Source: Streptomyces albogriseolus (lineage in GTDB: Bacteria; Actinomycetota; Actinomycetes; Streptomycetales; Streptomycetaceae). Taken from it: a DNA stretch of 64,000 nt. Shown here piece by piece: positions 14,254-32,284 of this stretch. A program made the translations under genes and the position numbers. Every line of letters starts with the position of its first letter. The first letter of the stretch is position 1. The DNA lies in assembly GCA_014650475.1 (NCBI GenBank), contig BMVA01000002.1, forward strand, positions 558,001 to 622,000, read 5' to 3'. The notes under the pieces are model-generated. The model had not been told where the DNA came from, searched no databases, and saw only the letters and a list, made by a program, of their open reading frames with translations.

Positions 14254-14265
14254 GACCGGGCCGCC

Positions 14266-16057: not shown

Positions 16058-17299
16058 CTACTCGACCGTGCCGCCCAGCAACCCCCTCAACCGCTGCGCC
16101 CGCAACACCAGCTCCAGCTCGAACCGCCGATCGGCATCGTCCACCGCCTCACCGAACAGCTCCCGGATCTGCCGTAACCGATACCGCACCGTCTGCGGAT
16201 GCACCCCCAGCCGCACCGCCACCTCCGGCGCCCCGCCCCGCGTCTCCAGCCACGCCAGCAGCGTCTCCGCCAGCCTCCGCCCGTGCGCGGGAGCGCAGTG
16301 CGCCAACGGCGCCAGACACCGCAGCGCGAGATCGTCGATCAGCTCCTCCGGCTGCAGCAGCACCAGCGCCTCGGTGTGCTCGGTGCAGTACAGCACCTCA
16401 CCGCACGGCAGCAGCCCCCGTTCCATCAGCCGTACCGCCGCCTCCGCCCACCGCAGCGACTTCGCCGCCTCGGTGACCGGCACGGGCGGCCCGATCGCCC
16501 CGGACCAGCCGGCGAGCGCCCGGTGCAGCAGTTCGCGGCGGCCGGCCGCGCCGGGTTCGGGCACGACCATGCGGGGCCGCTCGTGCTCCATGTCGAGCAG
16601 CACCCCCTGCCCCACCGCGGGCGCGACGGCCTCGCGCCCCGGGCGCAGCAGCACCCCGGCCGCGACCCGGTCGGGCACCGGCCAGCCGATCCGGGCGGCG
16701 CGTTCGGCGAGTGCGTCGGCCGGGTCGCCCCGGTGGTGCTCGGCGAGCAGCAGGTCCATCAGCCGGCGCTGCAGCCGCAGCCGTTCGCCCGCCTGCCGGG
16801 CCGCCGCCTCGGCGTAACCCCGCACCGACTGGTCGACCAGCCCGTCCAGGTACTCGTAGCCGGCGTCGACGAGTTCGTACATGGCGGGCGGGGGGATGTC
16901 GAGGCGCTGGCCGATCTCGGCGAACCGGCGCCAGGCCATGCGGACGCCCATCCGGTAGGTCGCCTGGAGCGCGTCCAGCGAGCGGCCGTTCAGTCCTTCG
17001 CCGCGTCCGAAGTCCTGGAAGACGCCGGGCGGCACGGTGGGCCGGCCCACCGAGTGGTCGCCCTGGGCGAGGTGCCGGACGAACACCTCGATGGCGCGGC
17101 GGATGCCGATGAGGGCCATCGGCTCGCCGGAGTCGTCGAGCACCACCGGCAGATGGGGGTACTCGCGCCGGATCTCGCCCATGATCTCCTCGGCCAGCGC
17201 GGGCGCCTCGGCCAGGGCGATCTCGGCGAACCGGTGCACCTGGTGGCGCGGTACGGCGTGCCAGGCGGAACGGGCGGTCAGGGTACGGGAGGCCGTCAC
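16058..17299 (-). CDS. PucR-type transcriptional regulator (413 aa)
   Basis: It has the same architecture as the protein at 4121-5332: a helical RsbRD-like N-terminal half (IRREYPHLP, RMGVRMAWRRFAEIGQRL), a middle CdaR-like region, and a C-terminal PucR helix-turn-helix (LGVHPQTVRYRLRQIREL). The GTG at 17299 has GGGGAG just upstream. It follows the 50-aa DUF2613 gene by 3 bp, so the two are co-transcribed divergently from the envelope-glycan cluster; it may regulate that cluster. This DUF2613 to PucR coupling is the main clue to function. The ligand is unknown. Confidence 0.85.
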   Translation of the reverse strand: MTASRTLTARSAWHAVPRHQVHRFAEIALAEAPALAEEIMGEIRREYPHLPVVLDDSGEPMALIGIRRAIEVFVRHLAQGDHSVGRPTVPPGVFQDFGRGEGLNGRSLDALQATYRMGVRMAWRRFAEIGQRLDIPPPAMYELVDAGYEYLDGLVDQSVRGYAEAAARQAGERLRLQRRLMDLLLAEHHRGDPADALAERAARIGWPVPDRVAAGVLLRPGREAVAPAVGQGVLLDMEHERPRMVVPEPGAAGRRELLHRALAGWSGAIGPPVPVTEAAKSLRWAEAAVRLMERGLLPCGEVLYCTEHTEALVLLQPEELIDDLALRCLAPLAHCAPAHGRRLAETLLAWLETRGGAPEVAVRLGVHPQTVRYRLRQIRELFGEAVDDADRRFELELVLRAQRLRGLLGGTVE

Positions 17300-17302: not shown

Positions 17303-17455
17303 TCAGCTCCCCTGGTCGGCCTGCTCGTAGGTGATCAGTGGAGTGTTCGGCTGGTCGGGGGTGGCCTCGAGCAGGGCCACGACGCCGAACGCCGTTCCCA
17401 CGGCGAGGAGGGCCGCGAGCGCGACCGTCAGGCAGGCGGCGAGCAGTCTGGACAT
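17303..17455 (-). CDS. DUF2613-like small membrane protein (50 aa)
   Basis: One hydrophobic helix (residues 4-29, LLAACLTVALAALLAVG then TAFGVVALL) is followed by a short polar tail ending YEQADQGS. The size and pattern match the DUF2613 mini-proteins of Actinobacteria, such as the small secreted protein encoded next to aftD in mycobacteria. Here too it lies near an AftD-like gene, on the opposite strand. The ATG at 17455 has a GAGAGG about 12 bp upstream. It could be a membrane accessory to the arabinosyltransferase-like enzyme; the evidence is only conserved neighbourhood. Confidence 0.65.
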   Translation of the reverse strand: MSRLLAACLTVALAALLAVGTAFGVVALLEATPDQPNTPLITYEQADQGS

Positions 17456-17544
17456 CGCAGGGTTCAGCCTCTCTGTCGGGGAGGGTTCCCCACCCCCACG
17501 TGACCGACCACCCCTGTCCGTCGTGACCCAGTCTCGGCACCTCA

Positions 17545-17573
17545 TTGACACTCCGTCAAGGGGCGCTTACGGT
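17545..17573 (+). promoter_or_regulatory. Housekeeping-type promoter for the envelope-glycan cluster
   Basis: TTGACA (17545-17550), a 17-bp spacer, then TACGGT (17568-17573). This matches the principal sigma factor consensus with optimal spacing. It lies about 95 bp upstream of the DUF3068 start and reads toward the cluster. Confidence 0.65.
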
Positions 17574-17666
17574 TCCCAGCCCTAGGGGGTGGGGACTCCC
17601 GCACGCGCACCTTCCCGTACGGCGGACCCGTCAGCGGCCCGCCGACCGAGCCTCTGGAGTGCCCGG

Positions 17667-18638
17667 ATGCGCCGTTCAGTCTCCCCGTTCTCCCTGGTCC
17701 TGCTGGGTCTCGGCACCTTCCTCCTGGTGCTGGCGCCCCTGCTCGTCCAGTACGTGCAGCCACGGGCCGCGGTCAATCCCACCGACATCGACACCACCGC
17801 CGTCTACACCGGCCGGGGCAGCGTCTTCGACCTGGAGAAGGTCGAGACGGTGCCGGACCAGCGGATCACCGTGACCCAGCGGGTGCGCGGCGACGTCCGG
17901 GAGAGCGAGCGCAGCGGCAAGGCGGTGTGGGACGTCATCACGTCCGTCGACACCGACAGGACGCTGCCGGCCGCCGACCCGCACGACGCGCTGTCGTTCA
18001 CCCCGCACCGCTGGGTGCTGGACCGCCGCACCACCGCGCCGGTGCACTGCTGCGGCGCGAAGCCGCGCATCCAGGGCGAGGCGTACCTGAAGTTCCCCTT
18101 CGACGTGCGGAAACGGGCCTACCGGTGGTGGGACAACACCCTCGGCGACACGGTCGTGCTGCGCTACCGGGGCACCGAGAAGGTCCTGGGCCACACCGGC
18201 TACCGCTTCACCGGGTCGGTGCCGCCCACCCGCACCGGCACCCGGCTGGTGCCCGGCCGCCTCGTCGGCCTGCCGGGCGGCGGTCAGGTGGCGGCCGAGG
18301 AGTGGTACGCCAACCACGGCGTGGAGCTGATCGTGGACCAGCGCACCGGCCGGGTGCTGTACGCGCAGACCGGGCCCCGGCAGACGCTGCGCGCCCCGGG
18401 CGGGACCGAGGACAGGGCGGTGCTGCTGGACGCCGAGAAGATCGCGTTCACCGAGGAGACCCAGCGGGCCGCCGTGGAGCAGGCGAAGGACGACGGCGAC
18501 CGGCTGCGGCTGCTCGGCGAGACCGTGCCGCTCGGCGCGGCGGTGGCGGGCGGCCTGCTCGCCGCGGCCGGTGTCGTCCTCCTGGCGCGCGGCCGGAAAG
18601 TGACGGCGCGTCCGGATCCGCTCGCTCCGTCCGCGTGA
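17667..18638 (+). CDS. DUF3068 (PorA-family-named) membrane-anchored protein (323 aa)
   Basis: One N-terminal transmembrane segment (FSLVLLGLGTFLLVLAPLLV) and one C-terminal segment (GAAVAGGLLAAAGVVLLA) flank a large extracytoplasmic domain, the DUF3068 layout. Inside it are TDIDTTAVYTGRG, two adjacent cysteines (HCCGAKP) and EEWYANHGVELIVDQRTG. Family members are actinobacterial cell-envelope proteins; the porin name given in databases is not supported by anything visible here. The ATG at 17667 has GGAG 7 bp upstream; an earlier ATG lacks it. It leads the same-strand cluster and is separated from the glycosyltransferase by 252 bp with a hairpin. Confidence 0.82.
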   Translation: MRRSVSPFSLVLLGLGTFLLVLAPLLVQYVQPRAAVNPTDIDTTAVYTGRGSVFDLEKVETVPDQRITVTQRVRGDVRESERSGKAVWDVITSVDTDRTLPAADPHDALSFTPHRWVLDRRTTAPVHCCGAKPRIQGEAYLKFPFDVRKRAYRWWDNTLGDTVVLRYRGTEKVLGHTGYRFTGSVPPTRTGTRLVPGRLVGLPGGGQVAAEEWYANHGVELIVDQRTGRVLYAQTGPRQTLRAPGGTEDRAVLLDAEKIAFTEETQRAAVEQAKDDGDRLRLLGETVPLGAAVAGGLLAAAGVVLLARGRKVTARPDPLAPSA

Positions 18639-18776
18639 CCCTCACCAAAAGAAGTGACTCACGAGTAAGAAAAGCCGGAAATTGTCACGCCGGTGAGTAG
18701 CCGTGGGGAACGCCTGGGCGAAAACTGTGCCATCCCCACCCACACACGGACCGTCCACATCCCTACCCAGGACGTC

Positions 18777-18801
18777 CCGGGGTCCCTTTTCAGGACCCCG
18801 G
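18777..18801 (+). terminator. Hairpin between DUF3068 and glycosyltransferase genes
   Basis: A 9-bp perfect stem (CCGGGGTCC with GGACCCCGG) with a 7-nt loop CTTTTCA lies 139 bp after the DUF3068 stop and 90 bp before the next start. It may be a partial terminator, in which case the glycosyltransferase operon has its own promoter in this 252-bp gap. Confidence 0.45.
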
Positions 18802-18890
18802 CCCCGGGGCCGCCGGCCCCGCCCCACCCCCTGTGCACCACCCCGCGTTCCTCCCCACGCCACCTCACACCGAGACGAGTTGGAGCACCG

Positions 18891-20030
18891 ATGCCCCAGC
18901 ACGTGCCGTCCTCGCTGCGCACAGCACTCCCCGGCGCGCAGCAGCTCTCCCCGGCGCTCCCCCCACATCCGCGCCGGATCGTCTTCCTCGCCCACCGGGA
19001 GCTGGGCAGTCCGTCCGCCGGCGGCTCCGAGCTGCTGGTCGACCGTCTCGCCGACGGTCTGAGCCGGCGGGGCCACGAGGTCACCCTGCTGTGCGGAGGG
19101 CCCGCGGCCTTCCGTGACTACCGGGTGGTGTCGGCGGGCGGACCGTACGACCACTACCTGCGCGCCCGTTCCGCGTTCGCCCGGCAGGTCGGCGACTGCG
19201 ACCTGCTGGTCGAGGTGTGCAACGGCATGCCGTACTTCGCGCCGCTGTGGCACCGCGGGCCCACCCTGTGCCTGGTCAACCATGTGCACACCGACCTGTG
19301 GCCGATGCGGTTCGGCGGCCCGCTGGCGCCCGCCGCGCGGCTCGGCCGGAAGCTGGAGCACTGGGCCCTCACCGGGGCGCACCGGCACGGCCTGGTCGTC
19401 GCGGTGTCCCCGTCCACGGCGCACGCCCTCCAGCGCATCGGCGTGCCGCGGGAGCGGATCCGCGTGGTGCACAACGGGGTCGCCGAGCCGGGCCCGCGCA
19501 CCGAACGCTCCCCCGAACCGCTCTTCGTGGCGGTGGGCCGGCTCGTCGAGTACAAGCGGATCGACCTGCTGCTGCGGCTGTGGGAACGGGTGCGGCCGGT
19601 CACCGGCGGCACCCTGGTGATCGTCGGCGACGGGCCCGAACGGGAGCGTCTCGAGCGGCTCGCAGGACCCCGGGTCCGCTTCACCGGGCATGTCTCCGAG
19701 ACCGAGAAGCACCGGCTGCTGTGCGCGGCCTGGCTGCTGCTGCATCCCTCCGCCGTGGAGGGCTGGGGTCTCGTCGTCACCGAGGCGGCGGCCCGTCAGA
19801 CCCCGGCGATCGCCTTCGACGTGCCCGGACTGCGCGACTCCGTGCGGGACGGCGAGACGGGGGTGCTCGCCCGCGGCGAGTCCTCCTTCGCCGCCGCGTG
19901 GATCTCCCTCACCCTGGCCGCGGACCGGCGCGCCCACATGGGCAAGGCGGCACGGGACGTCGCCGCCCGCTACCGGTGGGAGCACACCGTGCGCCAGTTC
20001 CGGGCCGTCGCCCGGGAGGCCGCACGGTGA
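18891..20030 (+). CDS. GT4-family glycosyltransferase (379 aa)
   Basis: A GT-B fold retaining glycosyltransferase. The N-terminal acceptor domain starts RRIVFLAHRELGSPSAGGSE. The C-terminal donor domain has the GT4 hallmarks VGRLVEYKRIDLLLR, VIVGDGPE and an E-x7-E motif (VEGWGLVVTEAA, near residue 290) that binds the nucleotide sugar. It has no membrane segment, so it acts on the cytoplasmic face, probably adding a sugar to a lipid carrier. The ATG at 18891 has TTGGAG 5 bp upstream. Its stop overlaps the next GTG by 4 bp. It starts the tightly packed part of the envelope cluster. Confidence 0.88.
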   Translation: MPQHVPSSLRTALPGAQQLSPALPPHPRRIVFLAHRELGSPSAGGSELLVDRLADGLSRRGHEVTLLCGGPAAFRDYRVVSAGGPYDHYLRARSAFARQVGDCDLLVEVCNGMPYFAPLWHRGPTLCLVNHVHTDLWPMRFGGPLAPAARLGRKLEHWALTGAHRHGLVVAVSPSTAHALQRIGVPRERIRVVHNGVAEPGPRTERSPEPLFVAVGRLVEYKRIDLLLRLWERVRPVTGGTLVIVGDGPERERLERLAGPRVRFTGHVSETEKHRLLCAAWLLLHPSAVEGWGLVVTEAAARQTPAIAFDVPGLRDSVRDGETGVLARGESSFAAAWISLTLAADRRAHMGKAARDVAARYRWEHTVRQFRAVAREAAR

Positions 20031-20773
20031 CGCGGTCCCGCCCTCCGTACGACGACCCCTCCCTGCGGCGCTCCCTCGCGCTGTTCCGCGCCTTCCTGCG
20101 CGAGCAGGACGACCCGGACGCCTGCTACGCCCTCCTCGCCCGTGACGCCGTCGACCAGGTGGAGGCGTACGACGGGCCGGTGGCCGGGCGGGTCGTCGCG
20201 GACGTCGGCGGCGGCAGCGGGTACTTCACCCGCGAGTTCCGCGCCCGGGGCGCGCTGGCCTGCCTGTTCGAGCCCGACGCGCGGGAGCTGGGCGAGAAGC
20301 CGCCCGAGGGCGCGGTGCTCGCGGACGGCTATCTGCTGCCGCTCGCCGACGGGGCCGCGGACGTCACGTTCTCCTCCAACGTGCTGGAGCACGTGGCCGA
20401 TCCGCGGACCTTCCTCAGCGAGCTGGTGCGGGTGACCCGGCCGGGCGGGCTGATCTACGTGTCGTTCACCAACTGGCTGTCCCCGTGGGGCGGTCATGAG
20501 TGGGCGCCCTGGCACTACCTGGGCGCCGGGCGGGCCCGTGCCCGTCACGAGCGCCGTACCGGCCGGCCCGCGAAGCACACCCTCGGCGAGAACCTGTTCG
20601 CCGTGCACGTCGGCCCCACCCTGCGCCAGGTGCGCGGCCGCGACGACGTGCGGATCGTCTCCGCCCGCTCCCGCTACTGGCCCTTCCTGACGGAGACCGT
20701 GGTGAAGGTGCCCGGTCTCCGCGAGTTCGCCACCTGGAACCTCCTCCTCATCCTCCGGCGGTGTCCCGCATGA
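20027..20773 (+). CDS. Class I SAM-dependent methyltransferase (248 aa)
   Basis: Motif I is VVADVGGGSGYFTREF (near residue 57) and the post-I acidic residue is in CLFEPDA. Methyltransf_11-type motifs follow: LPLADGAADVTFSSNVLEHV and VTRPGGLIYVSF. The GTG at 20027 overlaps the preceding stop (GTGA) and its own stop overlaps the AftD-like ATG (ATGA), so it is translationally coupled on both sides. It probably methylates a sugar or lipid precursor from the same pathway; the target is not visible. A second methyltransferase and an FkbM enzyme occur further down. Confidence 0.88.
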   Translation: MTRSRPPYDDPSLRRSLALFRAFLREQDDPDACYALLARDAVDQVEAYDGPVAGRVVADVGGGSGYFTREFRARGALACLFEPDARELGEKPPEGAVLADGYLLPLADGAADVTFSSNVLEHVADPRTFLSELVRVTRPGGLIYVSFTNWLSPWGGHEWAPWHYLGAGRARARHERRTGRPAKHTLGENLFAVHVGPTLRQVRGRDDVRIVSARSRYWPFLTETVVKVPGLREFATWNLLLILRRCPA

Positions 20774-23700
20774 CGACCACGGTCCAGGCTCCCCCTCCCG
20801 CCGCCGTCCCGGCCGGCCCCACGGCGGCGGGACCGCCGCGCGGCCCGCGCTCGCGCCGCTGGCTGCTCGGCTTCTGGGCGGTGGTGTTCGTCCTGCTCGT
20901 GGCCGTCCGGCCGGGACGGCAGACCTTCGACACCAAGCTCGGCGTCACCGTCGACCCGGGCCGGTTCCTGGCCGACCTGGGCCAGCTGTGGCAGAGCCGC
21001 GGCTCGTTCGGCGGGATCGCCGACCAGTACACCGGCTACCTGTGGCCGATGCTGCCGTACTACTGGCTGGCCGACCTGGTGCGGCTGCCGGTGTGGCTGG
21101 CGGAGCGGCTGTGGATGTCGCTGATCGTGACGGTCGCGTTCTGGGGCGCGCTGCGGCTGGCGGAGCGGCTGCGCGTCGGCGGCGGGGCGTCCCGGACGGT
21201 CGCGGCGGCGGCGTACGCGCTGTGGCCGGTGTTCACCACGGTCGTCGGCTCCACCTCGGCCGCCGCGCTGCCCGGCGCCCTGCTGCCGTGGGTGCTGCTG
21301 CCGCTGGCGGACCAGCGGTACGCGGCCCGGGTCGCGGCGCTGCGGTCGGCGCTGCTGGTGCCGTTCATGGGCGGCGTCAACGCGGCCTCCACACTGGCGT
21401 CGCTGCTGCCGGTCGGGCTGTATCTGCTGTCCCGCCCGCCGGGACCGCGGAAGTGGAAGCTGATCGCGTGGTGGGCGCCCGCGGTGGCGGTGGCGACCGC
21501 CTGGTGGTGGATCCCGCTGCTGCTGCTCGGCGTCCACGGGGAGAACTTCCTCCCGTACATCGAGACCGCGCGCACCACCACCGACACGATGGCGGCGACG
21601 GAGGCGCTGCGCGGCGCCGGGAACTGGGTGGCGTATCTGCACTTCGGCGAGCCGTGGCTGCCGGCCGGCTGGGCGGTGGCGTCCTCGGCGGCCGTGATCG
21701 TCTGCTCGGCGTGCGCGGCGGGCCTCGGACTGGCGGGCCTGGCCCGGCGGGACATGCCGGAGCGGCGCTGGCTGGTGCTGACGGTGCTGGCCGCGGCGCT
21801 GGTGCTGCTCGCCGGGTACGGCGGTGCGTCCGGCGGGCCGTTCCACGGGACGGTGCAGGACTGGCTGGACGGGTGGCTGTCGCCGTTCCGGAACGTCTAC
21901 AAGTTCCAGACGGGCCTGGCGCTGGCCCTCGTGCTCGGTCTGGCGCACCTCGCCGGGCGGGGCGTGCCGGGCCGGGGGGCGCGGCGGCGGCCGGGGACGC
22001 GGACGGCCGCGCTGCTCGCGGCGGTGCTGGTGCTGCCGGGGCTGGCCTGGCCGTACGTCGGCGGCAAGGTGCTCGGCCCCGGCTCGTTCCAGGAGATTCC
22101 CGCGTACTGGCGGGCGACCGCCGACTGGCTGGAGAAGAACTCACCGGACGCGCGCGCCCTGGTGGTGCCGGCGACCGCGCACGGCATCCACACCTGGGGA
22201 TCGACCATCGACCAGCCGCTCGACGTGGTCGCCGCCTCCCCGTGGGCGCAGCGCGACTACGTGCCGTTCGGCACGCCCGGCAACCGGCGGGCCCTGGACG
22301 CGGTGGAGCAGGCGCTGCTGACCGGCGGTGAAGTGCCCGGTCTCGCCGACTACTTGAGCCGGGCGGGCGTGCACTACGTCGTCGTCCGCAACGACCTCGA
22401 CCCGGACCAGCTCGGCCAGGTGCCCACGGCGACGGTGAAGCGCGCCCTGGAGCAGTCCGGGTACGAGCGGGTCGAGGGCCTGGGTCCCGTGACGACCGGC
22501 GGGGTCATCGCCCCGGGCACCCCGCTCCAGGTGGAGGGCCTGTACCCGCGGCAGCGCGCGGTGGAGATCTACCGCCCGGCCGGGGCGGACGTGCCCCGGC
22601 CGGGCCCGGCGGAGCTGCTGCCGGTGGCCGACACGGCCGTGGTGTCCGGCGGTCCCGAATCGCTGCTGCCGCCGGCGGAGGAGCTGCGCGGCCGGCCCGC
22701 CGTGCTGACCGGCGACGCGCATCCGGGGCTGGGCGCCCCGGCGGTGCAGGTGACCGGCGACGGGCTGCGCCGCGCGGACACCCGGTTCGGGCTGGTCAAC
22801 TCGAACACCTCGTACACGTACACGCCCGACGAGCGCAACGCGCCGGACGCCGCCCAGGAGCCGGGCGAGCGGCCCCGGCAGATCCTCCCCGTCGAGGGCG
22901 AGGAGCACCAGACGGTGGCCGAACTGCGCGGCGCACGCGAGGTGTCGGCGTCCTCCTACGGCAACTGGCTGTTCCATCTGCCGCAGTACGACCCGGTGCA
23001 CGCCTTCGACGGCGACCCGGCGACCGGCTGGGCGGAGGGCGCCGAGGACACCCCGGACGGGCAGTGGCTGCGGATCGCCTTCGACGGCCGCTACGACATG
23101 CCGGACGCCCTCCGCGTCACCCCGCTCCCCCAGAACGGGGTGCGGGCGGCGCCGACCGAGGTGCGGGTGGAGACGGAGAACGGCTCCGCGACCTCGTTCC
23201 TGCGCGTCGACGGCGAGCGGGAGCGGATCGACGCGCCGGCCGGCCCGACCCGCTGGATGAGACTGACGATCGTCGGCTCCACCGTCCCGCGCCCCGGTGT
23301 CACCGGCGCCGGCTTCTCCGAGGTGGAGCTGCCCGGCGTGCGGGTGACACGGCTGCTGCGGCTGCCCGAGGACGGCGAGGACACCACGGCGTCCGCGCGG
23401 ATCGTGTCGCTGCACCGGGCCGCCGACCCCACCGGACTGTCCCTCGCGGGCAGCGAGTCCGGGCTGCGCCGGATCGTCGGCGCCGTCCAGGCCGGGACGT
23501 ACGCGGTGCGGGCGAGCGCGGTGGCGGTGCCGGGCGAGGCGCTGGACCGGCTGCTGTACGAGGTGGCGCCCCAGCAGCGGCGGAGGATCGTCGCGACGGC
23601 GGACTCCACGGCACGGCTGGGCGCGGGCCTGTCCGCGCGGAACCTCACCGACGGGGACCTGACCACCGCGTGGATCGCGGGCGACGAACCGACCGTCCGG

Positions 23701-25149
23701 CTGAGCTGGCCGGGGAAGCGGCGGATCGGCGAACTGGTGCTGGCGCCCGCCGGCGGGCTGTCCGCGCGGGCCGCCGAGGTGCGGATCACCTCCCCGGCCG
23801 GCGCGGTGGTGGCGGGCGTCGACGACAACGGCTGGGTGCGGTTCCCGCCGATGACCACGGACCGCCTAGACATCACGGTCACCCGCACCGCCCCGCTCAC
23901 CGTGCACAACCCGGCGGTGGGCGAGGACCTCCAGCTCCCGGTGGGGCTGACGGAGGCGTACGTCCCGGCGCTGGACGACCTCCGCACCCCCCAGCCGGAG
24001 GGCGACCCCGCGTTCTCGCTGGAGTGCGGCAAGGGCCCCGTGCTGACGGTGGACGGCGAGCGCTACGACACCGCCGTACGCGGCACCGTGCGGGACCTGG
24101 TGGAGCGGCGGCCCGTCGAGGTGACGCCGTGCCGCGACGGGCGGACCGTCCCCGGGCTGGACCTTTCCGCGGGACCGCACGAGATCGAGGCCGGCGACGC
24201 GGGCCCGCTCACCACCACCGAGGTGACGCTGGCCCTGGGCGCCGTGCCGGAACGCGCGGCCACCGGGCGCGACCTGCGGGTACGGGACTGGCTGGGCGAC
24301 CGCCGCGAGGTGCTCGTCGGGCCCGGCGCCGCCTCCTACCTGACGACGCACGAGAACCACAACGACGGCTGGAAGGCCACCCTCGACGGCGAGGAGCTGA
24401 CCCCGCTGCGGCTGGACGGCTGGCAGCAGGGCTGGCTCGTCCCGGCGGGCGAGGGCGGCACGGTGAAGCTCTCCTACGGGCCCGCCACGACGTACGACGC
24501 CGCGCTGATCGCGAGCGGCGCCGGGATCGTGGCGCTGGCGGGCCTGCTGCTGTGGCGGCGCCGGGCGGAGAACCCGGACGGCCCGCCGCCGGCGCCGCCC
24601 GCCCCGGGCGTGTGGCTGGGCGCGGTCGCGGTGACGCTGACGGGCGTGGTGATCGCGGGCTGGTGGGCCCTGCTGGTCCCGGCCCTGGCACTGCTCGCCC
24701 GGCGCCGGCGGTCCCTGCTGCCCCCGGTGGCCTTCGCGACCCTCACAGGAGCGGGCCTCGCGGCGGCGGTGGGCGCGGGAGGCGCGGTGACCGCGGACGA
24801 GGGGGCGTTCGGACACATGGCCCAAGTGCTGGCCCTGACCGGCCTGTTCGCGGCGCTGGTGACCCTGGGCGCGGGCCGGGAACGGGACGACGCGCCCGCC
24901 GGAGGGGAGCCGGGACCGGGTGAGGAGGACGCCGGGCTTCCCCCGGCCGGCGACCCGGAGGACACGGCGGCCCTGCCCGCGGGGGCGCGTCCCGCCCCCG
25001 GCTCCCGGCCGGCGCCTCCGCGTGCCCCCGCGGCCCGGGTACGCCCGTTCCTGCCGCCGCTCCCGTCACGGGGCGAACCGGGACGACGCGGACCCGCCGG
25101 CCCGGGGACCGCAGGCCCCACGCCTCCCGGCGCGGGAGGCCCCGCATGA
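20770..25149 (+). CDS. AftD-like alpha-(1->3)-arabinofuranosyltransferase family protein (1459 aa)
   Basis: A giant GT-C membrane transferase. About 10-12 transmembrane segments cover residues 30-460, starting with RWLLGFWAVVFVLLVA and including the conserved QYTGYLWPMLPYYWLADLV loop. A long periplasmic part follows with two discoidin-like carbohydrate-binding regions (around DPVHAFDGDPATGWAEG and ARNLTDGDLTTAWIAG). The last 200 residues hold more membrane helices and a Pro/Gly-rich tail. In mycobacteria AftD transfers arabinofuranose from decaprenyl-phosphoarabinose to arabinogalactan and lipoarabinomannan. Streptomycetes lack that wall polymer, so the acceptor here is unknown. The ATG overlaps the upstream stop. 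Its own stop overlaps the condensation gene. Confidence 0.88.
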   Translation: MTTTVQAPPPAAVPAGPTAAGPPRGPRSRRWLLGFWAVVFVLLVAVRPGRQTFDTKLGVTVDPGRFLADLGQLWQSRGSFGGIADQYTGYLWPMLPYYWLADLVRLPVWLAERLWMSLIVTVAFWGALRLAERLRVGGGASRTVAAAAYALWPVFTTVVGSTSAAALPGALLPWVLLPLADQRYAARVAALRSALLVPFMGGVNAASTLASLLPVGLYLLSRPPGPRKWKLIAWWAPAVAVATAWWWIPLLLLGVHGENFLPYIETARTTTDTMAATEALRGAGNWVAYLHFGEPWLPAGWAVASSAAVIVCSACAAGLGLAGLARRDMPERRWLVLTVLAAALVLLAGYGGASGGPFHGTVQDWLDGWLSPFRNVYKFQTGLALALVLGLAHLAGRGVPGRGARRRPGTRTAALLAAVLVLPGLAWPYVGGKVLGPGSFQEIPAYWRATADWLEKNSPDARALVVPATAHGIHTWGSTIDQPLDVVAASPWAQRDYVPFGTPGNRRALDAVEQALLTGGEVPGLADYLSRAGVHYVVVRNDLDPDQLGQVPTATVKRALEQSGYERVEGLGPVTTGGVIAPGTPLQVEGLYPRQRAVEIYRPAGADVPRPGPAELLPVADTAVVSGGPESLLPPAEELRGRPAVLTGDAHPGLGAPAVQVTGDGLRRADTRFGLVNSNTSYTYTPDERNAPDAAQEPGERPRQILPVEGEEHQTVAELRGAREVSASSYGNWLFHLPQYDPVHAFDGDPATGWAEGAEDTPDGQWLRIAFDGRYDMPDALRVTPLPQNGVRAAPTEVRVETENGSATSFLRVDGERERIDAPAGPTRWMRLTIVGSTVPRPGVTGAGFSEVELPGVRVTRLLRLPEDGEDTTASARIVSLHRAADPTGLSLAGSESGLRRIVGAVQAGTYAVRASAVAVPGEALDRLLYEVAPQQRRRIVATADSTARLGAGLSARNLTDGDLTTAWIAGDEPTVRLSWPGKRRIGELVLAPAGGLSARAAEVRITSPAGAVVAGVDDNGWVRFPPMTTDRLDITVTRTAPLTVHNPAVGEDLQLPVGLTEAYVPALDDLRTPQPEGDPAFSLECGKGPVLTVDGERYDTAVRGTVRDLVERRPVEVTPCRDGRTVPGLDLSAGPHEIEAGDAGPLTTTEVTLALGAVPERAATGRDLRVRDWLGDRREVLVGPGAASYLTTHENHNDGWKATLDGEELTPLRLDGWQQGWLVPAGEGGTVKLSYGPATTYDAALIASGAGIVALAGLLLWRRRAENPDGPPPAPPAPGVWLGAVAVTLTGVVIAGWWALLVPALALLARRRRSLLPPVAFATLTGAGLAAAVGAGGAVTADEGAFGHMAQVLALTGLFAALVTLGAGRERDDAPAGGEPGPGEEDAGLPPAGDPEDTAALPAGARPAPGSRPAPPRAPAARVRPFLPPLPSRGEPGRRGPAGPGTAGPTPPGAGGPA

Positions 25150-26423
25150 GCGCGCACGCCCGTCCGGGCGGCCCCGCCCGCATCCCCTTCCCCGTCGTCG
25201 ACGAGATCTCCCGGCACTGTCTCCGGCACGAGGAACCGGAGACCGTCCACATCGAGGTGCACCTGCCCGGTGAGGTGGATCCGGGACGGCTGCGCAAGGC
25301 GTTCGGCGAGGCGTTGCGGCGGCATCCGAGGAGCCTGGTGCGGGAGGCTTCCGGGCCCTGGTACCGGCGTCGCTACACATGGGAGCCGACCGACGGGCCG
25401 GACGCGGAGCCCGTGAGCTTCCCGGTGCCGGGACCGCACGCCCTGCGGGACGCCCGTACGCGGGCGCTGCGCGCGGCGCCCCCGCTCACCGTGTCGCCGC
25501 CGGTCCGGCTGGAAGCCGTGCGCGGGGAGGCGGAGGGCACCGTCCTGGTCCTCACCGTCAACCACACCGCGATGGACGGCCCCTCCTGTCTGCGTGTGCT
25601 GGCCACCGCCGCCGAGCTGTACGGCGGCCGGGACAACGAGCCGGCCGCCCCGCCCGTCCGTCCGCACGACGCGCCGCCCGTCCCGCCGGACACCCCGTCC
25701 CCGTGGACGAGGCCCGCCCGGGTGGCACGCGGCGCGCCCGGACCGGCGCCCGGCAACGGGCTGATCGTCACGGAGCTGCCGCTGCCGCGCCGTCCGAAGG
25801 ACGCCCCGTACACGGTGAACGACCAGCTGATGGCGGCCACCGCGCTGACCGTGGCGCACTGGAACCGGGAGCGCGGCGCGCGGGTCCGTCCGCTGCGGAT
25901 CACCATGCCGGTGGACGACCGGCCCCGGGACAGCGGCATGCCGATCGGCAACGGCACCCGGCTGGTCGACGTGGTCTTCGCGCCGGAGGAGCTGGACGCG
26001 GACGCGGTGCCGGAGCTGCTGCGCCGTACCGCCCTGCGCACCCGCGCCCTCAAGGCCCTCCCCCGGCCCCAGCTCGGGCACGGCGCGGCGCTGCTGACCG
26101 CTCCGTGGGCGCCGGTCGCCTGCCGGGCCGCGCTGACCCGGGCGCTGCGCCGGGCGGCGGCGCCGTGGACGTCGACCACGCTGCTCAGCAACATCGGACG
26201 CGTCCCGTACCCGCTGGACTTCGGGGAGGACGCGGGCCGGGCGCGGGCCGTGTGGTTCTCGGCGCCCGCCCGGATGCCGCGCGGGCTGACCTTCACCACC
26301 GCGTCCACGGCGGGCCGGCTGCATCTGGCGCTGCGCTGGTCGGGCGGGCTGCTCGGGGACGGCGACGGCGCGCATCTGCGCGAGCTGTTCGCGCACCATC
26401 TGCGGACCACGGAGGCGACCTGA
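25146..26423 (+). CDS. Condensation-domain acyltransferase homologue (425 aa)
   Basis: A free-standing protein of the CoA-dependent acyltransferase/NRPS condensation superfamily. The catalytic HxxxD is H140-TAM-D144 in LTVNHTAMDGPS, and a late motif TTLLSNIGRVPYPLDFG matches the second half of the fold. The family includes PapA-type enzymes that acylate mycobacterial glycolipids. There is no adenylation or carrier domain nearby, so an acyl-CoA donor and a glycan or glycolipid acceptor is the simplest inference. Its ATG overlaps the AftD-like stop by 4 bp, and the next gene begins at the base after its stop. Confidence 0.82.
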   Translation: MSAHARPGGPARIPFPVVDEISRHCLRHEEPETVHIEVHLPGEVDPGRLRKAFGEALRRHPRSLVREASGPWYRRRYTWEPTDGPDAEPVSFPVPGPHALRDARTRALRAAPPLTVSPPVRLEAVRGEAEGTVLVLTVNHTAMDGPSCLRVLATAAELYGGRDNEPAAPPVRPHDAPPVPPDTPSPWTRPARVARGAPGPAPGNGLIVTELPLPRRPKDAPYTVNDQLMAATALTVAHWNRERGARVRPLRITMPVDDRPRDSGMPIGNGTRLVDVVFAPEELDADAVPELLRRTALRTRALKALPRPQLGHGAALLTAPWAPVACRAALTRALRRAAAPWTSTTLLSNIGRVPYPLDFGEDAGRARAVWFSAPARMPRGLTFTTASTAGRLHLALRWSGGLLGDGDGAHLRELFAHHLRTTEAT

Positions 26424-27176
26424 GTGACCACCACCGCATCCCCGGCCACCCCGCCCCCGCCCCCCGGGCTGCGTGACTTCTACGAGAACCCGGCCGTGCC
26501 CGTCGCCTCGGGCCCGTCCCGGAGTCTGCGCCAGGCCCGCATGCTGGCCCGCGCGCTGGGCCCGGCCGGCGCCTCGGGTCCGCGCACGGTCCTGGACATC
26601 GGCTGCGGCGACGGCACCGCGGCCGCCACCGCCGCCCCGCTGCTGCGCGGCCACCGGCTGATCGGCGTCGACTGGTCGCAGGACGCCCTCACCCGGGCGC
26701 GCACCCGGCTGCCGTACGCGGTGCGCGGCGAACTCGGCGGCGGAGGGCTGCCGTTCGCGTCGGGGTCGGCGGACGCGGTGCTGTTCAGCGAGGTGCTGGA
26801 GCATCTGGTCGACCCGGACGCGGCGCTCGACGAGATCCGCCGGGTGCTGCGGCCGGGCGGTCATCTCATGCTCTCCACGCCGAACCTGGCCGCCTGGTAC
26901 AACCGCGCCCTGCTGCTCGCCGGGGTGCAGCCGGTGTTCTCCGAGGTGAGCCTGCGCTCCGTCCACGGCCGGCCGGGCGCGGAGGTCGTGGGGCATCTGC
27001 GGCTGTACACGGCCCGCGCGCTGCGGGAGTTCGTCGCCGCGTCCGGCTTCACCGTCGTGACGCTGGAGGGGGCGCCGTTCCACGGGGTGCCGCGGGTGCT
27101 GCGGCCGCTGGACCGGCTGGCCTGCGGGGCGCCGTCGCTCGCGTCGATCCTGCTGCTGCACGCGCGGCGGGCGTGA
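26424..27176 (+). CDS. Class I SAM-dependent methyltransferase (250 aa)
   Basis: Motif I is TVLDIGCGDGTAAATAAP (near residue 55), with the acidic residue in IGVDWSQDAL. Downstream motifs are DAVLFSEVLEHLVDP and VLRPGGHLMLSTPNLAAWYNR; the last is typical of methyltransferases acting on glycan or lipid intermediates. The GTG at 26424 follows the previous TGA directly, with GGAGG 8 bp upstream. It is part of the envelope cluster. The target is unknown. Confidence 0.88.
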   Translation: MTTTASPATPPPPPGLRDFYENPAVPVASGPSRSLRQARMLARALGPAGASGPRTVLDIGCGDGTAAATAAPLLRGHRLIGVDWSQDALTRARTRLPYAVRGELGGGGLPFASGSADAVLFSEVLEHLVDPDAALDEIRRVLRPGGHLMLSTPNLAAWYNRALLLAGVQPVFSEVSLRSVHGRPGAEVVGHLRLYTARALREFVAASGFTVVTLEGAPFHGVPRVLRPLDRLACGAPSLASILLLHARRA

Positions 27177-27191
27177 GGGGGGCGGGGGGAG

Positions 27192-28106
27192 ATGTGGTGG
27201 GGAGTGGGCGCGGCGCTGCTGGCGAACGTCCTGTACAGCGCGGGGTTCGTGCTGGAGAAGCGGGCGCTGGGCGCGCTGCCCGAGGTGACGGTGCGCCGGC
27301 CGGCCCGGCTGCTGCGGCTGGTGCTGGGCAGCCCGCTGTGGATCGGCGGCTCACTGGCCCTCGCGGCCGGGTTCGCCGCGCAGCTCGCCGTGTACCGCAC
27401 GCTGCCGATCGCCGCCGCGCAGGGCCTGTTCGTCTCCGGCCTGGTGCTGCTGGTGCTGCTGTCGGCGCGGCTGCTGGGCGAGGAGACCAGCGGCCGGGAG
27501 CGGTACGCGCTCGGCGCGATCCTGCTGGCGCTGCTGATGGTGGTGCTGTCGCTGCGGGAGAGCGGCGCGGACGCCGACACCGTGGGCCGGGACGCGCCGT
27601 ACCCGCTGATCCTGCTGGTGTGCGTGCCGGCGCTGGCGGCCGGGGTGTGGCTGTACTCGTCCGCCGAGCGCAACGCCCGCCACCGGCACCGGCTGCCCAC
27701 CACCGGCGTGGAGTACGGCGTGGCCGTGGGCCTGCTCTACGGGGTCAGCTCGCTCGCCGTGAAGGGCGTGTCGAGCCACCTGACGACCAGCGGCGTCGGC
27801 GCGTCGGCCGTCGCGCTGCTGCGCTCCCCGTACCCGTATCTGCTGCTGTTCACCGGGGCGTTCGGGCTGGTGATGTCGCAGGCGGCGCTGCAGCGCTGCC
27901 GGGCCTCGCTGATCGTTCCGGTGTGCACGACCGTGACGTGCCTGTTCACGGCGGTGCTCGGCACGCTGTCGTTCGGCGAGGAACTGCCGGACGAGCCGCT
28001 GCGGCTGGCGCTGCGCGTGCTCGGCACCGTCCTCGCGGTGACCGTGCTGCTCGCCATGCCCAAGCACGACACCGCGCCCCGATCCCCCGCCACACCGAGG
28101 AGTTGA
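27192..28106 (+). CDS. DMT-superfamily (EamA-like) membrane transporter (304 aa)
   Basis: About nine to ten hydrophobic segments in two similar halves, each beginning with an EamA-like pattern (LLANVLYSAGFVLEKRALG; VAVGLLYGVSSLAVKGVSS). Related small transporters flip sugar-lipids or export metabolites. In this cluster the protein could move a lipid-linked sugar across the membrane to feed the AftD-like enzyme, which needs a donor on the outer face; this is inference from position. GGGGGGAG lies just before the ATG. Seven bases separate it from the Trm112-like gene. Confidence 0.8.
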   Translation: MWWGVGAALLANVLYSAGFVLEKRALGALPEVTVRRPARLLRLVLGSPLWIGGSLALAAGFAAQLAVYRTLPIAAAQGLFVSGLVLLVLLSARLLGEETSGRERYALGAILLALLMVVLSLRESGADADTVGRDAPYPLILLVCVPALAAGVWLYSSAERNARHRHRLPTTGVEYGVAVGLLYGVSSLAVKGVSSHLTTSGVGASAVALLRSPYPYLLLFTGAFGLVMSQAALQRCRASLIVPVCTTVTCLFTAVLGTLSFGEELPDEPLRLALRVLGTVLAVTVLLAMPKHDTAPRSPATPRS

Positions 28107-28113
28107 CGACACC

Positions 28114-28353
28114 GTGAAGCCCGACGACCCGCTGCTGAGGATTCTCGCCTGCCCGCTCGACAAGGGGCCGCTGCACCTGCTCACCGCGGACGACGGGGAG
28201 GGGGAGGCGCTGTACAACCCGCGGCTGCGCCGCCGTTACCCGGTCGTCGACGGCGTCCCGCAGCTGCTGCCGTCGTCCGGGGAGCAGGTGCCGGAGGAGG
28301 AGCACGAGCGGCTGCTGGCCCGCGCGGCCGGGGCCCCGGGGACGGCGCCGTGA
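28114..28353 (+). CDS. Trm112-like protein (79 aa)
   Basis: It starts LLRILACPLDKGPLHLL and contains RRRYPVVDGVPQLLP, the pattern of the YcaR/Trm112 family. Trm112 proteins bind and activate methyltransferases in eukaryotes and archaea, and bacterial homologues are usually encoded near methyltransferase genes. Only one cysteine of the zinc motif is kept. It lies directly before, and overlaps by 4 bp, an FkbM methyltransferase gene. The GTG start has GAGGAG 11 bp upstream. A partner role for one of the three methyltransferases in this cluster is plausible. Confidence 0.82.
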   Translation: MKPDDPLLRILACPLDKGPLHLLTADDGEGEALYNPRLRRRYPVVDGVPQLLPSSGEQVPEEEHERLLARAAGAPGTAP

Positions 28354-29186
28354 CGGGGCGGCGCACGCTCGCGGCGCGGGCGGCGTCGGCGCTGCCCGCG
28401 CGCGTGGTGGCGGCGGCGGCCCGCGCGGTCTACCCGCGCTTCGAGCCCGAGCTGGCCCGCCTCTCCGACCTGTGCCCGCCGGGCTGCGACACGGCCGTGG
28501 ACGTCGGCGCCTGGTACGGCCCGTGGACGCACCGGCTGGCCCGGCACGCCCGCCGGGTGGTCACCCTGGAGCCGGTGCCGCGCCTGGCCCGGCTGCTGGG
28601 CGCGACCGCCCCGCCGAACGTGCGGGTGATCCGCGCGGCCGCCTCCGACCGGCCGGGCGTGGCCCGGCTGTGGCTGCCGGACGACGACGCCGGCGCCCAG
28701 GGCGTGTCCTCACTGGTCCGCCGGGACATCCACGGCCACGCCCTGGACGTCACCTGTGTCGCCCTGGACGACCTGGGGCTGCGCGACGTCGGCTTCCTGA
28801 AGATCGACGTGGACGGCAACGAGCCGGCGGTGCTGCGCGGGGCGACCGGCATCCTCGCCCGCGACCGGCCGGCCCTGTTCGTCGAGCTGGAGTCGCGGAT
28901 CCAGCCGATCGCCCCGGTGGTGACGTATCTGTCCCTGCTGGGTTACGACGGCTGGGTGCTGCCCGCCGGCACGTGGATCCCGCTGTCCCGCTTCCCGCTG
29001 GAGGCGCACCAGAAGCGCACCGCGTACGTCGCCACGCACGGGCTGCTGCGCCGGATCCTGCCGTACGAGCGGCTGCGCGGCCCGCGCTACGTCAACTCGG
29101 TGCTGTTCCTCCCGGACGGCCGCCGCCCGGGAGAGCGTCCGGTGGGCGACGATGGGTCCCGTGCCCACCGGACGACGCCCACCTGA
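28350..29186 (+). CDS. FkbM-family methyltransferase (278 aa)
   Basis: FkbM fold: SAM motif I is TAVDVGAWYGPWTHRLARHA, motif II VVTLEPVPRLARLL, and the conserved FLKIDVDGNEPAVLRGA, where the acidic pair helps bind the cofactor. FkbM enzymes O-methylate hydroxyls of polyketides and sugars. The GTG overlaps the Trm112-like stop. The length is typical. The gene ends in a 35-bp overlap with the next reading frame. It probably completes the methylation set of the envelope cluster; the acceptor is unknown. Confidence 0.87.
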   Translation: MTGRRTLAARAASALPARVVAAAARAVYPRFEPELARLSDLCPPGCDTAVDVGAWYGPWTHRLARHARRVVTLEPVPRLARLLGATAPPNVRVIRAAASDRPGVARLWLPDDDAGAQGVSSLVRRDIHGHALDVTCVALDDLGLRDVGFLKIDVDGNEPAVLRGATGILARDRPALFVELESRIQPIAPVVTYLSLLGYDGWVLPAGTWIPLSRFPLEAHQKRTAYVATHGLLRRILPYERLRGPRYVNSVLFLPDGRRPGERPVGDDGSRAHRTTPT

Positions 29187-29766
29187 ACCGTTCACCCCGT
29201 TCCACTTCCAGCTGGTGCTGCTGCGGCGCATGGCCGACCACAACCCCGGCCTGGTGGAGGACGCCCGGCGCGCGCTGGGCGCGTCCCTCGCCGACATGCG
29301 GGAGGCCAACCGGCGCTGGCAGGCGATGGTCCGCTCGCCGCGCCCCCGCCCGGCGCTGTCCCGGTACCGCTCGGTGCTCGGCCCCCCGGAGTCGCGGACC
29401 CCGCGCCGGGTCGGCGACCTGGACTGCGAGGCATGGCGGTGGCCCCTGCCGCTCTGGCCGGACCTGCGTTTCGAGGTGCTGACCCCGGCGGGCGGGGGCG
29501 CGGTGTGGAACGAGTGGCTGGTCCGCGCGCCCGGCGCGCCCGCGCCCGCGCTGCGCACGCTGGAGGACCTCACACCCTGGTCGTGCACGGTGGACGAGGT
29601 GGCCCGCGCCTTCGCCCCGGCCCGCCCGCTGGAGGGCTCGGCGCCCACCCGGTGGGGGCTGGCCTTCACCGCCCCGGACGCGGAGGGCCGGCGTCACGCG
29701 GTGGTCGCGGAGTTCACCTGGGGGCTGCTCCAGCGGACGGCCGCCGGCGGCCCGCCGCCTCGGTGA
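29152..29766 (+). CDS. Conserved-type hypothetical protein (204 aa)
   Basis: A soluble basic protein with no signal or membrane segment. Recognisable stretches are FHFQLVLLRRMADHNPG, WRWPLPLWPDLRFEV and EDLTPWSCTVDEV; I do not know the family. Codon bias supports coding. The ATG at 29152 overlaps the FkbM gene by 35 bp, and a GTG at 29161 is an alternative start. The 3' end overlaps the convergent ATP-grasp gene by 53 bp, so antisense effects between the two transcripts are possible. It is the last gene of the cluster. Confidence 0.6.
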   Translation: MGPVPTGRRPPEPFTPFHFQLVLLRRMADHNPGLVEDARRALGASLADMREANRRWQAMVRSPRPRPALSRYRSVLGPPESRTPRRVGDLDCEAWRWPLPLWPDLRFEVLTPAGGGAVWNEWLVRAPGAPAPALRTLEDLTPWSCTVDEVARAFAPARPLEGSAPTRWGLAFTAPDAEGRRHAVVAEFTWGLLQRTAAGGPPPR

Positions 29767-30814: not shown

Positions 30815-32284
30815 GTGTCCTCTCTCTTCCCGGCCCTCACCGACGGCCCGGCCGGCGGCTCACCCGGCCGTCCCGCCCTGCGCTTCGGCGAGCGCGCACT
30901 GACGTACGGGGAACTCGCCGCCGCATCCGGCGCGGTGGCCGGGGACCTCAAGGGGGTGCGCACGGCCGCCGTGTGGGCCACGCCGACCCTGGAGACCGCC
31001 GTCGCGGTCACCGCCGCGCTGCTCGCCGGGGTGGTCGTGGTCCCGCTCAACCCGAGGTCGGGCGAGCGGGAGCTGGGCCACATCCTCGGCGACAGCGCCC
31101 CCGACGTGCTCCTCGCCGCGCCCGGCGTCCCGCTGCCCGACGCACCGGCCGCCCTGCCCCGCGTCGACGTGGACCCGGCCCGCGGCGCCGACCGGGGCTC
31201 CGTGCCCGACGACCGGGAGCGCGACCCGGAGGACCCCGCCCTGATCGTCTACACCTCCGGCACCACCGGCCCGCCCAAGGGCGCCGTCATCCCCCGCCGT
31301 TCGATCGCCTCGACGCTGGACGCCCTCGCCGACGCCTGGCGGTGGACCGACGCCGACGTGCTGGTGCACGGCCTGCCGCTGTTCCATGTGCACGGCCTGG
31401 TCCTCGGCACGCTGGGCCCGCTGCGCCGCGGCGGCGCGGTGCGCCATCTGGGCCGGTTCACCACCGAGGGCGTGGCCCGCGAGCTGAACTCCGGCGCGAC
31501 CATGCTGTTCGGCGTGCCGACGATGTACCACCGCATCGCGGAGGCGCTGCCCGCCGAACCGGACCTGGTGCGGGCGCTGTCCGGCGCCCGGCTGCTGGTG
31601 TCGGGGTCGGCCGCGCTGCCGGTGCACGACCACGAGCGGATCACGGCGGCGACCGGCGCCCGGGTCGTCGAGCGGTACGGCATGACGGAGACGCTGATGA
31701 ACACCAGCGTCCGCGTGGACGGCGAGACCCGCCCCGGCTCGGTCGGCGTGCCGCTGCCCGGCGTCGAACTGCGGCTGGTCGAGGAGGACGGCACCCCGGT
31801 GACGTCGTACGACGGCGAGACCGTGGGCGAGATCCAGGTGCGCGGGCCGAACCTGTTCACCGAGTACCTCAACCGGCCCGACGCCACGGCGGAGGCGTTC
31901 ACCGCGGACGGCTGGTTCCGCACCGGCGACATGGCGGTCCGCGACCCCGGCGGCGACGTCCGCATCGTCGGCCGCAAGGCGACCGACCTCATCAAGAGCG
32001 GCGGCTACAAGATCGGCGCGGGCGAGATCGAGAACGCGCTGCTGGAACACCCGGGCGTGAAGGAGGCGGCCGTCACCGGGGAGCCGGACGCCGACCTGGG
32101 CGAGCGGATCGTGGCGTGGGTGGTGCCGGCCGACCCGCAGTCCCCGCCCGGCCTGGAGGAGCTGGCCGGCCATGTGGCCGCGCGCCTCGCCCCACACAAG
32201 CGGCCCCGGGCCGTCCGCCACCTCGACGTGCTGCCCCGCAACGACATGGGCAAGATCATGAAGCGGGCGCTGACGCATGGCTGA
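30815..32284 (+). CDS. matB: Malonyl-CoA synthetase (MatB-type, 489 aa)
   Basis: An ANL-superfamily acyl-CoA ligase. The P-loop is YTSGTTGPPKG (146-156); others are VERYGMTETLMNT, the hinge FRTGDMA with GRKATDLIKSGGYKIGAGEIE, and the late catalytic lysine region NDMGKIMKRAL. Its N-terminus (MSSLFPAL) and the rest closely match what I remember of S. coelicolor MatB (SCO2444), which makes malonyl- and methylmalonyl-CoA from the free acids, ATP and CoA. The products feed fatty acid and polyketide extension. The GTG start has AAGGAG upstream. The next gene, a carboxyltransferase homologue, overlaps it by 8 bp, so both may adjust malonyl-type CoA pools. Confidence 0.9.
   Translation: MSSLFPALTDGPAGGSPGRPALRFGERALTYGELAAASGAVAGDLKGVRTAAVWATPTLETAVAVTAALLAGVVVVPLNPRSGERELGHILGDSAPDVLLAAPGVPLPDAPAALPRVDVDPARGADRGSVPDDRERDPEDPALIVYTSGTTGPPKGAVIPRRSIASTLDALADAWRWTDADVLVHGLPLFHVHGLVLGTLGPLRRGGAVRHLGRFTTEGVARELNSGATMLFGVPTMYHRIAEALPAEPDLVRALSGARLLVSGSAALPVHDHERITAATGARVVERYGMTETLMNTSVRVDGETRPGSVGVPLPGVELRLVEEDGTPVTSYDGETVGEIQVRGPNLFTEYLNRPDATAEAFTADGWFRTGDMAVRDPGGDVRIVGRKATDLIKSGGYKIGAGEIENALLEHPGVKEAAVTGEPDADLGERIVAWVVPADPQSPPGLEELAGHVAARLAPHKRPRAVRHLDVLPRNDMGKIMKRALTHG

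Follow-up and report, generated by a model that had tools for sequence, protein, structure and literature searches.

What does a Streptomyces do with a gene for AftD, the glycosyltransferase that mycobacteria use for arabinogalactan? We investigated this question for a gene cluster in a 64,000-nucleotide stretch of the Streptomyces albogriseolus genome (contig BMVA01000002.1, positions 558,001 to 622,000; the 64-kb window), which extends from a microprotein gene at 17303–17455 on the minus strand to the end of an open reading frame (ORF) at 29766. The initial annotation of this stretch named ten genes, every one of which is present, and proposed that they make an undescribed surface glycolipid containing arabinose or another pentose. 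We find that the cluster is probably the form that an actinobacterial envelope module takes in Streptomyces; the counterpart in the mycolata is aftD-pgfA-mmpA-mtrP-tmaT. The module would act on a lipid-linked glycan that is arabinosylated, acylated, methylated and carried by PgfA. This reading is carried by the genes themselves, by their linkage throughout the class, by homology of the core genes and by a donor cassette encoded in the same genome.

AftD (20770–25149, plus strand, 1459 amino acids) is a GT-C protein with carbohydrate-binding modules. It matches PF11847 at 735 bits against a cut-off of 26, and the ORF at 20500–25149 additionally matches PF24607 (53 bits) and PF00754 (29 bits). 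Comparison with the solved mycobacterial AftD (6wbx/6w98) gave E-values of about 1e-138 (6wbx 1.4e-138) over 27–1338, and a DTK motif is invariant in all 12 aligned AftD sequences. Membership in the AftD family is thereby confirmed, and the likeness to the mycobacterial enzyme (6wbx/6wby, 6w98) is one of whole-length homology, comprising the GT-C domain plus the carbohydrate-binding modules. The setting differs, however: the Emb (PF04602) and GlfT2 (PF19320) families were each found in 0 of the 61 Streptomyces genomes searched, with a positive Corynebacterium glutamicum control. Therefore the AftD acceptor cannot be standard arabinogalactan, and arabinogalactan was rejected as the product. Some actinobacteria carry more than one AftD-type gene in tandem (loci L045, L071 and L079).

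The second core gene encodes PgfA/LmcA (DUF3068; 17589–18638, plus strand, alternative start ATG 17667), a membrane-anchored extracytoplasmic protein. It matches the NCBIfam equivalog NF053601 at 319 bits, twice the cut-off of 160, and PF11271 at 260 bits, whereas its direct sequence similarity to the LmcA structure (MSMEG_0317; 7n3v) is weak (E=0.002). To our knowledge a mycolate pathway is not expected in Streptomyces, and the PgfA cargo must therefore differ from the mycobacterial one. According to published work, LmcA has a lipid-sized cavity (PMC8972800), and PgfA works with MmpL3 in Mycobacterium smegmatis (PMC9678360).

In Corynebacterineae, the tmaT locus contains tmaT, pgfA/lmcA (NCgl2760), mmpA (NCgl2761), a glycosyltransferase gene and mtrP (NCgl2764), with aftD nearby; the order in C. 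glutamicum is aftD (cg3161), tmaT (cg3163), glycosyltransferase (cg3166) and mtrP (cg3168), and functions of tmaT, NCgl2760, mmpA and mtrP in mycolata have been described (PMC7775120, PMC8698533). We compared this locus with the two genes that follow pgfA in the window, encoding a GT4 glycosyltransferase (18693–20030, plus strand, alternative start ATG 18891; Glycos_transf_1, 103 bits) and the MtrP-type methyltransferase MT1 (20027–20773, plus strand; Methyltransf_11, 57 bits). Both window proteins were used as queries in ten genomes, namely their own and nine others, four of which belong to the mycolata family (f4). In all nine other genomes the best GT4 match adjoined AftD or fell within the AftD-PgfA locus (10/10 counting its own). 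The best MT1 match was 43–53% identical in these nine genomes, with the next best match anywhere at no more than 41 bits, and lay in the AftD-PgfA locus in eight of them; in the remaining genome (G325) it is located beside a PgfA paralogue and DprE1. In 4/4 mycolata genomes the best genome-wide matches of both genes fall into the aftD-pgfA locus, where best matches are one-way and the mycolata genes were recognised by locus rather than by name. The representative of this family, locus L034, is mycobacterial as judged by its matches to the solved AftD (1909 bits) and LmcA (537 bits).

Owing to the homology of PgfA/LmcA, GT4 and MT1, the cluster represents a variant form of the aftD/pgfA/mmpA/mtrP locus already known from mycolata. 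The DUF3068, GT4 and methyltransferase genes belong to the core of a locus that the initial annotation did not recognise, and the machinery is therefore less orphan than thought. The likeness lies in the linkage of PgfA, GT4, an MtrP-type methyltransferase, AftD and a DUF2613-like microprotein. In contrast, neither a TmaT-type AT3 acyltransferase nor an MmpA relative was present in any of the 23 Streptomyces AftD loci read (four of them cut short), which instead contain a PapA-like acyltransferase, a second methyltransferase (MT2), a NIPA/DMT-like transporter, a Trm112-like protein and an FkbM methyltransferase. A genus-wide MmpA profile search gave 0/61 Streptomyces with no positive control, and we claim absence for the clusters read only. 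One-to-one identity with the tmaT locus was rejected, since AT3 and MmpA are missing from the Streptomyces loci. The most fitting description of the cluster is a new Streptomyces form of the aftD/pgfA locus of mycolata, one member of a family that spans the class.

PgfA also occurs away from AftD. Nine of the 28 Streptomyces included in a draw of 296 genomes from the class carry PgfA without AftD, at a different locus (L053, L063-L066). The neighborhoods of the paralogues at L053, L063 and L064 looked otherwise unrelated when read by eye; an MT1-type methyltransferase was not seen at L053, likewise by eye and with no family search.

How regularly does the arrangement recur within the genus? 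AftD was detected at 24 places in 23 of 61 Streptomyces genomes, and 20 of these places were retrieved as neighborhoods, in which genes were counted by phmmer on stop-to-stop ORFs. Barring contig ends and some accessory losses, the cluster recurs in 20/20 neighborhoods and is therefore not a chance assembly; the initial annotation had itself named lack of conserved co-occurrence in other genomes as grounds for refutation. AftD and the acyltransferase are present in all 20, the microprotein, PgfA, GT4 and MT1 in 19 each, MT2, Trm112 and a PucR-type regulator in 18 each, the DMT gene in 17, FkbM in 13 and the ORF starting at 29152 in 11. Where upstream genes (L024) or downstream genes (L014 and L019) are missing, the stretch or contig stops. 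As far as ORF positions reveal, gene order is the same as in the window. The closest named AftD, from Streptomyces werraensis JCM 4860 (cluster at L067), is 96% identical. In Streptomyces G005 the acyltransferase gene is split across two frames (L026:11500-13035), by sequencing error or decay.

A similar picture was obtained beyond the genus. In the class draw AftD was found in 139, PgfA in 134 and both in 117 genomes, and among the matches listed the two genes are located at most 20 kb apart in 101 of 107 genomes, the other six having them on different contigs. We also inspected 51 named AftD loci outside mycolata and Streptomyces, using the 44 of at least 19 kb and dropping seven shorter ones. 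With AftD present by selection, GT4 and PgfA occurred in all 44, the microprotein in 40 and MT1 in 28; at least four of the five core genes were found in 44/44 and all five in 24, many of these loci being close relatives and so not independent. The genera include Micromonospora, Amycolatopsis, Lentzea, Nocardiopsis, Blastococcus, Jiangella, Nocardioides and Pseudonocardia.

The genes missing from the Streptomyces loci are widespread as well. With the gene straight after PgfA in L034 as query (13525–15258, 573 amino acids), assigned as MmpA by position, relatives scoring 95 bits or more were detected in 54 of the 66 AftD loci that belong to neither mycolata nor Streptomyces, among them loci of Amycolatopsis, Lentzea, Nocardiopsis, Blastococcus, Nocardioides and Micromonospora. 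A TmaT-type AT3 acyltransferase was found in 34 of the 66, including Micromonospora, Blastococcus, Nocardioides and Acrocarpospora loci; it was not found in the AftD loci of Amycolatopsis, Lentzea or Nocardiopsis. Pfam confirmed Acyl_transf_3 for the AT3 genes of L034 and L040. We know of no report that these non-mycolata genera make mycolic acids.

MmpA has been published as a protein without homology, and single MmpA sequences gave no informative Pfam or PDB match. When a profile of 14 MmpA relatives was compared with a profile of 12 AftD GT-C domains, however, we obtained a probability of 98.6% (E 8e-16, 449 columns), and under another column rule 99.5% (E 2e-22, 590 columns); these E-values derive from one pairwise profile comparison and are not database E-values. 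Controls remained low, with 2.0 and 2.5% for reversed profiles, 0.0% for two column shuffles, 0.2% for AT3, 0.1% for reversed AT3 and 0.1% for PgfA. The profiles indicate kinship between MmpA and the GT-C domain of AftD, and MmpA-type proteins occur beyond the mycolata. A 717-amino-acid membrane protein encoded near AftD (L040:3971-6124 and 32 other loci), which has no Pfam match, reached 22% (E 2e-4) in the profile comparison and is possibly a further distant GT-C relative.

The microprotein gene encodes 50 amino acids with a single transmembrane helix. The initial annotation had called it a DUF2613 mini-protein; by architecture it is DUF2613-like, but it lies on the minus strand and gave no Pfam match at E<=10 (PF11021 cut-off 22.1 bits). 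Both Streptomyces relatives tried remained below this threshold at 16.7 and 16.9 bits, and the three microproteins tried from beside AftD in mycolata are Pfam DUF2613 at 53–89 bits. We then used a pattern, chosen after seeing examples: a length of 38–70 amino acids, an N-terminal transmembrane helix and, among the 14 C-terminal residues, a Y with G, E or D directly after it. Across 99 AftD loci the pattern matched 88 times within 4.5 kb of AftD (1275 kb) and twice farther off (723 kb), one of these beside PgfA, and there were zero matches in 219 kb of 11 loci without AftD; the single ORF passing it in the window is 17303–17455. Where the microprotein and a gene for MmpA or AftD occur together outside Streptomyces, the two are coupled in 79 of 80 loci: in non-mycolata it directly follows MmpA on the same strand in 50/51, often with a 4-bp overlap, and in mycolata it adjoins AftD in 29/29 (examples are L111:7802-7957, L081:8290-8430 and L034:3506-3679). 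Of 51 aligned microproteins (one row being a wrong ORF), 38 have the dipeptide YG two residues before the C-terminus; Y[GED] was selected for, the exact place of YG was not. The Streptomyces members have a different tail (TYE/SYD), and their gene lies on the other strand next to PucR. We take the microprotein to be a putative small partner of AftD-type GT-C proteins.

Downstream of AftD lies the gene for a provisional PapA/condensation-superfamily-like acyltransferase (25146–26423, plus strand). The H-x3-D motif of the condensation type is present, with H140 and D144 invariant in 17/17 aligned relatives. Profile matches of these relatives are weak (PapA_C in 2/17, best E 3.4e-6; Condensation in 5/17; WS_DGAT_C in 4/17), and the window protein by itself stays under the Pfam cut-offs (Condensation E=0.015). 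A PDB search with the alignment retrieved C-domains at E 0.03–0.11, and one with the single protein retrieved no match. Unlike PapA and nonribosomal peptide synthetase condensation enzymes, this protein and most of its relatives carry Asn in place of the initial His of HHxxxDG. As the Streptomyces loci contain no AT3, this acyltransferase may replace the TmaT-type enzyme.

The remaining accessory genes, all on the plus strand, encode MT2, a class-I methyltransferase (26424–27176; Methyltransf_23, 78 bits), a DMT/NIPA-like multi-pass transporter and candidate flippase (27192–28106), a Trm112-like protein, likely a methyltransferase partner (28114–28353; Trm112p, 46 bits, cut-off 22), and the FkbM-family methyltransferase (28350–29186; Methyltransf_21, 44 bits; TIGR01444, 67 bits). 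The DMT transporter of the initial annotation is present, but the true gene occupies a frame that differs from that of the longer ORF at 27173–28117. Mg_trans_NIPA is its sole Pfam model above cut-off, by a narrow margin (26.4 versus 26.2 bits), and NF038012 DMT_1 reached 36.4 bits, under its cut-off of 50. Relatives of these genes recur in other AftD loci: FkbM in five Micromonospora/Verrucosispora loci (276–291 bits), DMT in six Nocardiopsis/Streptomonospora loci (150–157 bits) and MT2 in L145 from Acrocarpospora (335 bits) and in L041 (300 bits). This recurrence supports a shared product with lineage-specific decoration.

An arabinosyltransferase of this type needs a donor, and the initial annotation suggested looking for the genes of decaprenyl-phosphoryl-arabinose (DPA) synthesis. 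In the genome of the window, DprE2, DprE1, a PAP2 phosphatase and decaprenyl-phosphate phosphoribosyltransferase are encoded side by side in L057 (G000:C15:40000-59900) at 6973–10717, DprE2-DprE1 on the minus and PAP2-phosphoribosyltransferase on the plus strand, forming a complete-looking cassette. All scores exceed the cut-offs given in brackets: DprE1 688 (500), DprE2 383 (250), phosphoribosyltransferase 419 (207) and PAP2 65 (27) bits. DprE1 aligns end to end with solved DprE1. The cassette and the cluster sit on different contigs. In Nocardioides halotolerans (L121) the genes for phosphoribosyltransferase (401 bits), DprE1 (565), DprE2 (382), MT1 and AftD are consecutive, the three donor enzymes all being above cut-offs. 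Across the class DprE1 is located within 17 kb of AftD in 15 genomes. Among the 61 Streptomyces, DprE1 was present in 20 of 23 AftD-bearing genomes versus 14 of 38 others (Fisher p=1.6e-4) and the phosphoribosyltransferase in 14/23 versus 10/38 (p=0.014); for 86 Streptomyces pooled without duplicates DprE1 was found in 25/32 versus 22/54 (p=8e-4). That the genome also encodes this donor cassette strengthens the idea of arabinose as the transferred sugar. In searches of open-licence literature we recognised no study of AftD or DprE1 function in Streptomyces. In 18 genomes of one family, DprE1 is also found no more than 2.5 kb from a PgfA gene, and this second PgfA is separate from the AftD-linked one; in L040:309-2195 (G290) such a second PgfA gene near DprE1 stands beside a UbiA-family gene.

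From these data we infer a mechanism as a sequence of steps. DPA would be supplied by the phosphoribosyltransferase, PAP2 phosphatase, DprE1 and DprE2, whose genes lie at another chromosomal site. At the cytoplasmic face GT4 would make a glycan or glycolipid acceptor, which would be methylated by MT1, MT2 (perhaps with Trm112) and FkbM and acylated by the PapA-like enzyme, a role taken in many relatives by TmaT-type AT3 enzymes. The NIPA/DMT-like protein may assist membrane crossing, whereupon AftD, aided in its GT-C step by the microprotein, would add arabinofuranose outside, and PgfA would hold or pass on the lipid-linked product. This product would be an arabinofuranosylated, acylated and methylated lipoglycan or glycolipid rather than arabinogalactan.

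Several points weigh against this interpretation. The enzyme order, the lipid anchor and the acyl group are guesses. Occurrence in Streptomyces is patchy (23/61), so the cluster is not essential to the genus. In C. glutamicum loss of PgfA affects lipomannan and lipoarabinomannan and not trehalose mycolates, and for loss of MtrP, MmpA or TmaT the reverse was found (PMC8698533); one locus therefore need not equal one pathway. The association of AftD with DprE1, whose statistics ignore kinship, is absent in the 28 class-draw Streptomyces (7/11 versus 8/17, p=0.46) and weak class-wide when mycolata are left aside (39/115 versus 31/157, p=0.011). DprE1 above cut-off is lacking in 76 of the 139 AftD-bearing class-draw genomes and in 3 of 23 AftD-bearing Streptomyces, and the phosphoribosyltransferase in 9 of the latter 23. 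A strict DPA requirement for every AftD was rejected because of these 76 genomes. AftD might accordingly transfer another polyprenyl-phosphate-linked furanose or pentose, the DPA cassette serving something else in loose co-occurrence, as would also fit the 14 AftD-negative Streptomyces with DprE1 and the location of the cassette on a separate contig. Against this stand the three donor genes directly preceding MT1-AftD in N. halotolerans, the 15 genomes with DprE1 close to AftD and its presence in 20 of 23 AftD-bearing Streptomyces, and we consider another sugar unlikely.

The cluster could also decorate a known wall polymer in place of a separate lipoglycan. Streptomyces walls reportedly contain teichulosonic acid, often substituted with N-acetylglucosamine or methyl groups (PMC11481543), which would suit the three methyltransferases, but family scans of the cluster proteins found no polymer-backbone, Kdn or LCP-ligase family, and PgfA together with the acyltransferase would point to a lipid-linked product; such a role appears quite improbable. 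Least plausible, and in our view very improbable, is a secondary-metabolite cluster, with a small acylated glycoside as the joint product of the glycosyltransferases, the methyltransferases and the condensation-like enzyme. Such clusters commonly contain FkbM methyltransferases and acyltransferases resembling C-domains, and the patchy distribution among Streptomyces would be in line with this reading. The AftD/GT4/PgfA core, usually with MT1, however recurs in different families of the class and also in mycolata, in which the core genes are envelope genes (PMC8698533, PMC7775120). An envelope module building an arabinosylated lipid-linked glycan remains our preferred reading.

With regard to gene layout, the initial annotation described mostly 4-bp overlaps. 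The overlap is exactly 4 bp at four of the eight junctions from pgfA to FkbM (GT4/MT1, MT1/AftD, AftD/acyltransferase and Trm112/FkbM), but the other four show gaps of about 54, 0, 15 and 7 bp, the start positions of pgfA and GT4 being uncertain. The ORF at 29152–29766 (plus strand, no Pfam match) overlaps FkbM and is a possible last gene. On the other side, the PucR-type regulator gene (16058–17299, minus strand; HTH_30, 66 bits) is a neighbor lying 3 bp from the microprotein gene and possibly its operon partner. Acyl-CoA-ligase-like (assigned by eye from sequence) and acetyl-CoA-carboxylase-carboxyltransferase-like genes at 30815–33623, beyond an intervening minus-strand gene, were excluded from the cluster.

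In mycolata the roles of PgfA, MmpA, MtrP and TmaT are linked with trehalose mycolates or with lipomannan, and because the set is partly essential it is hard to study there. Relatives of these genes in soil actinobacteria for which mycolic acid synthesis is not known represent free-living, deletable models, and the existence of the set outside mycolata implies that its original job was not mycolate-specific. The match of the Streptomyces cluster to the mycobacterial genes, with synthesis of the arabinose donor encoded in the same genome, suggests that the machinery is older than the mycobacterial outer membrane. We tentatively propose, with some doubt, that the mycolata 'mycolate transport' locus (TmaT, MmpA, MtrP, PgfA) may be a late adaptation of an older actinobacterial machine building and exporting an arabinofuranosylated, acylated and methylated lipid-linked glycan. 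That machine would comprise two AftD-type GT-C proteins (AftD and MmpA), each pairable with a dedicated single-transmembrane microprotein, together with a GT4 acting in the cytoplasm, MtrP, an acyltransferase and PgfA as lipid carrier. In the Streptomyces lineage AftD, GT4, MtrP and PgfA would have been retained, and the places of MmpA and TmaT would have been taken by the PapA-like acyltransferase, additional methyltransferases and the NIPA/DMT-like transporter. On this view MmpA would be a glycosyltransferase, or a protein derived from a GT-C enzyme, instead of an accessory to transport; its kinship to the GT-C domain of AftD assigns it to an enzyme class that can be tested. For the genus, the prediction is that a definable subset of Streptomyces species would carry an arabinose-containing envelope component.

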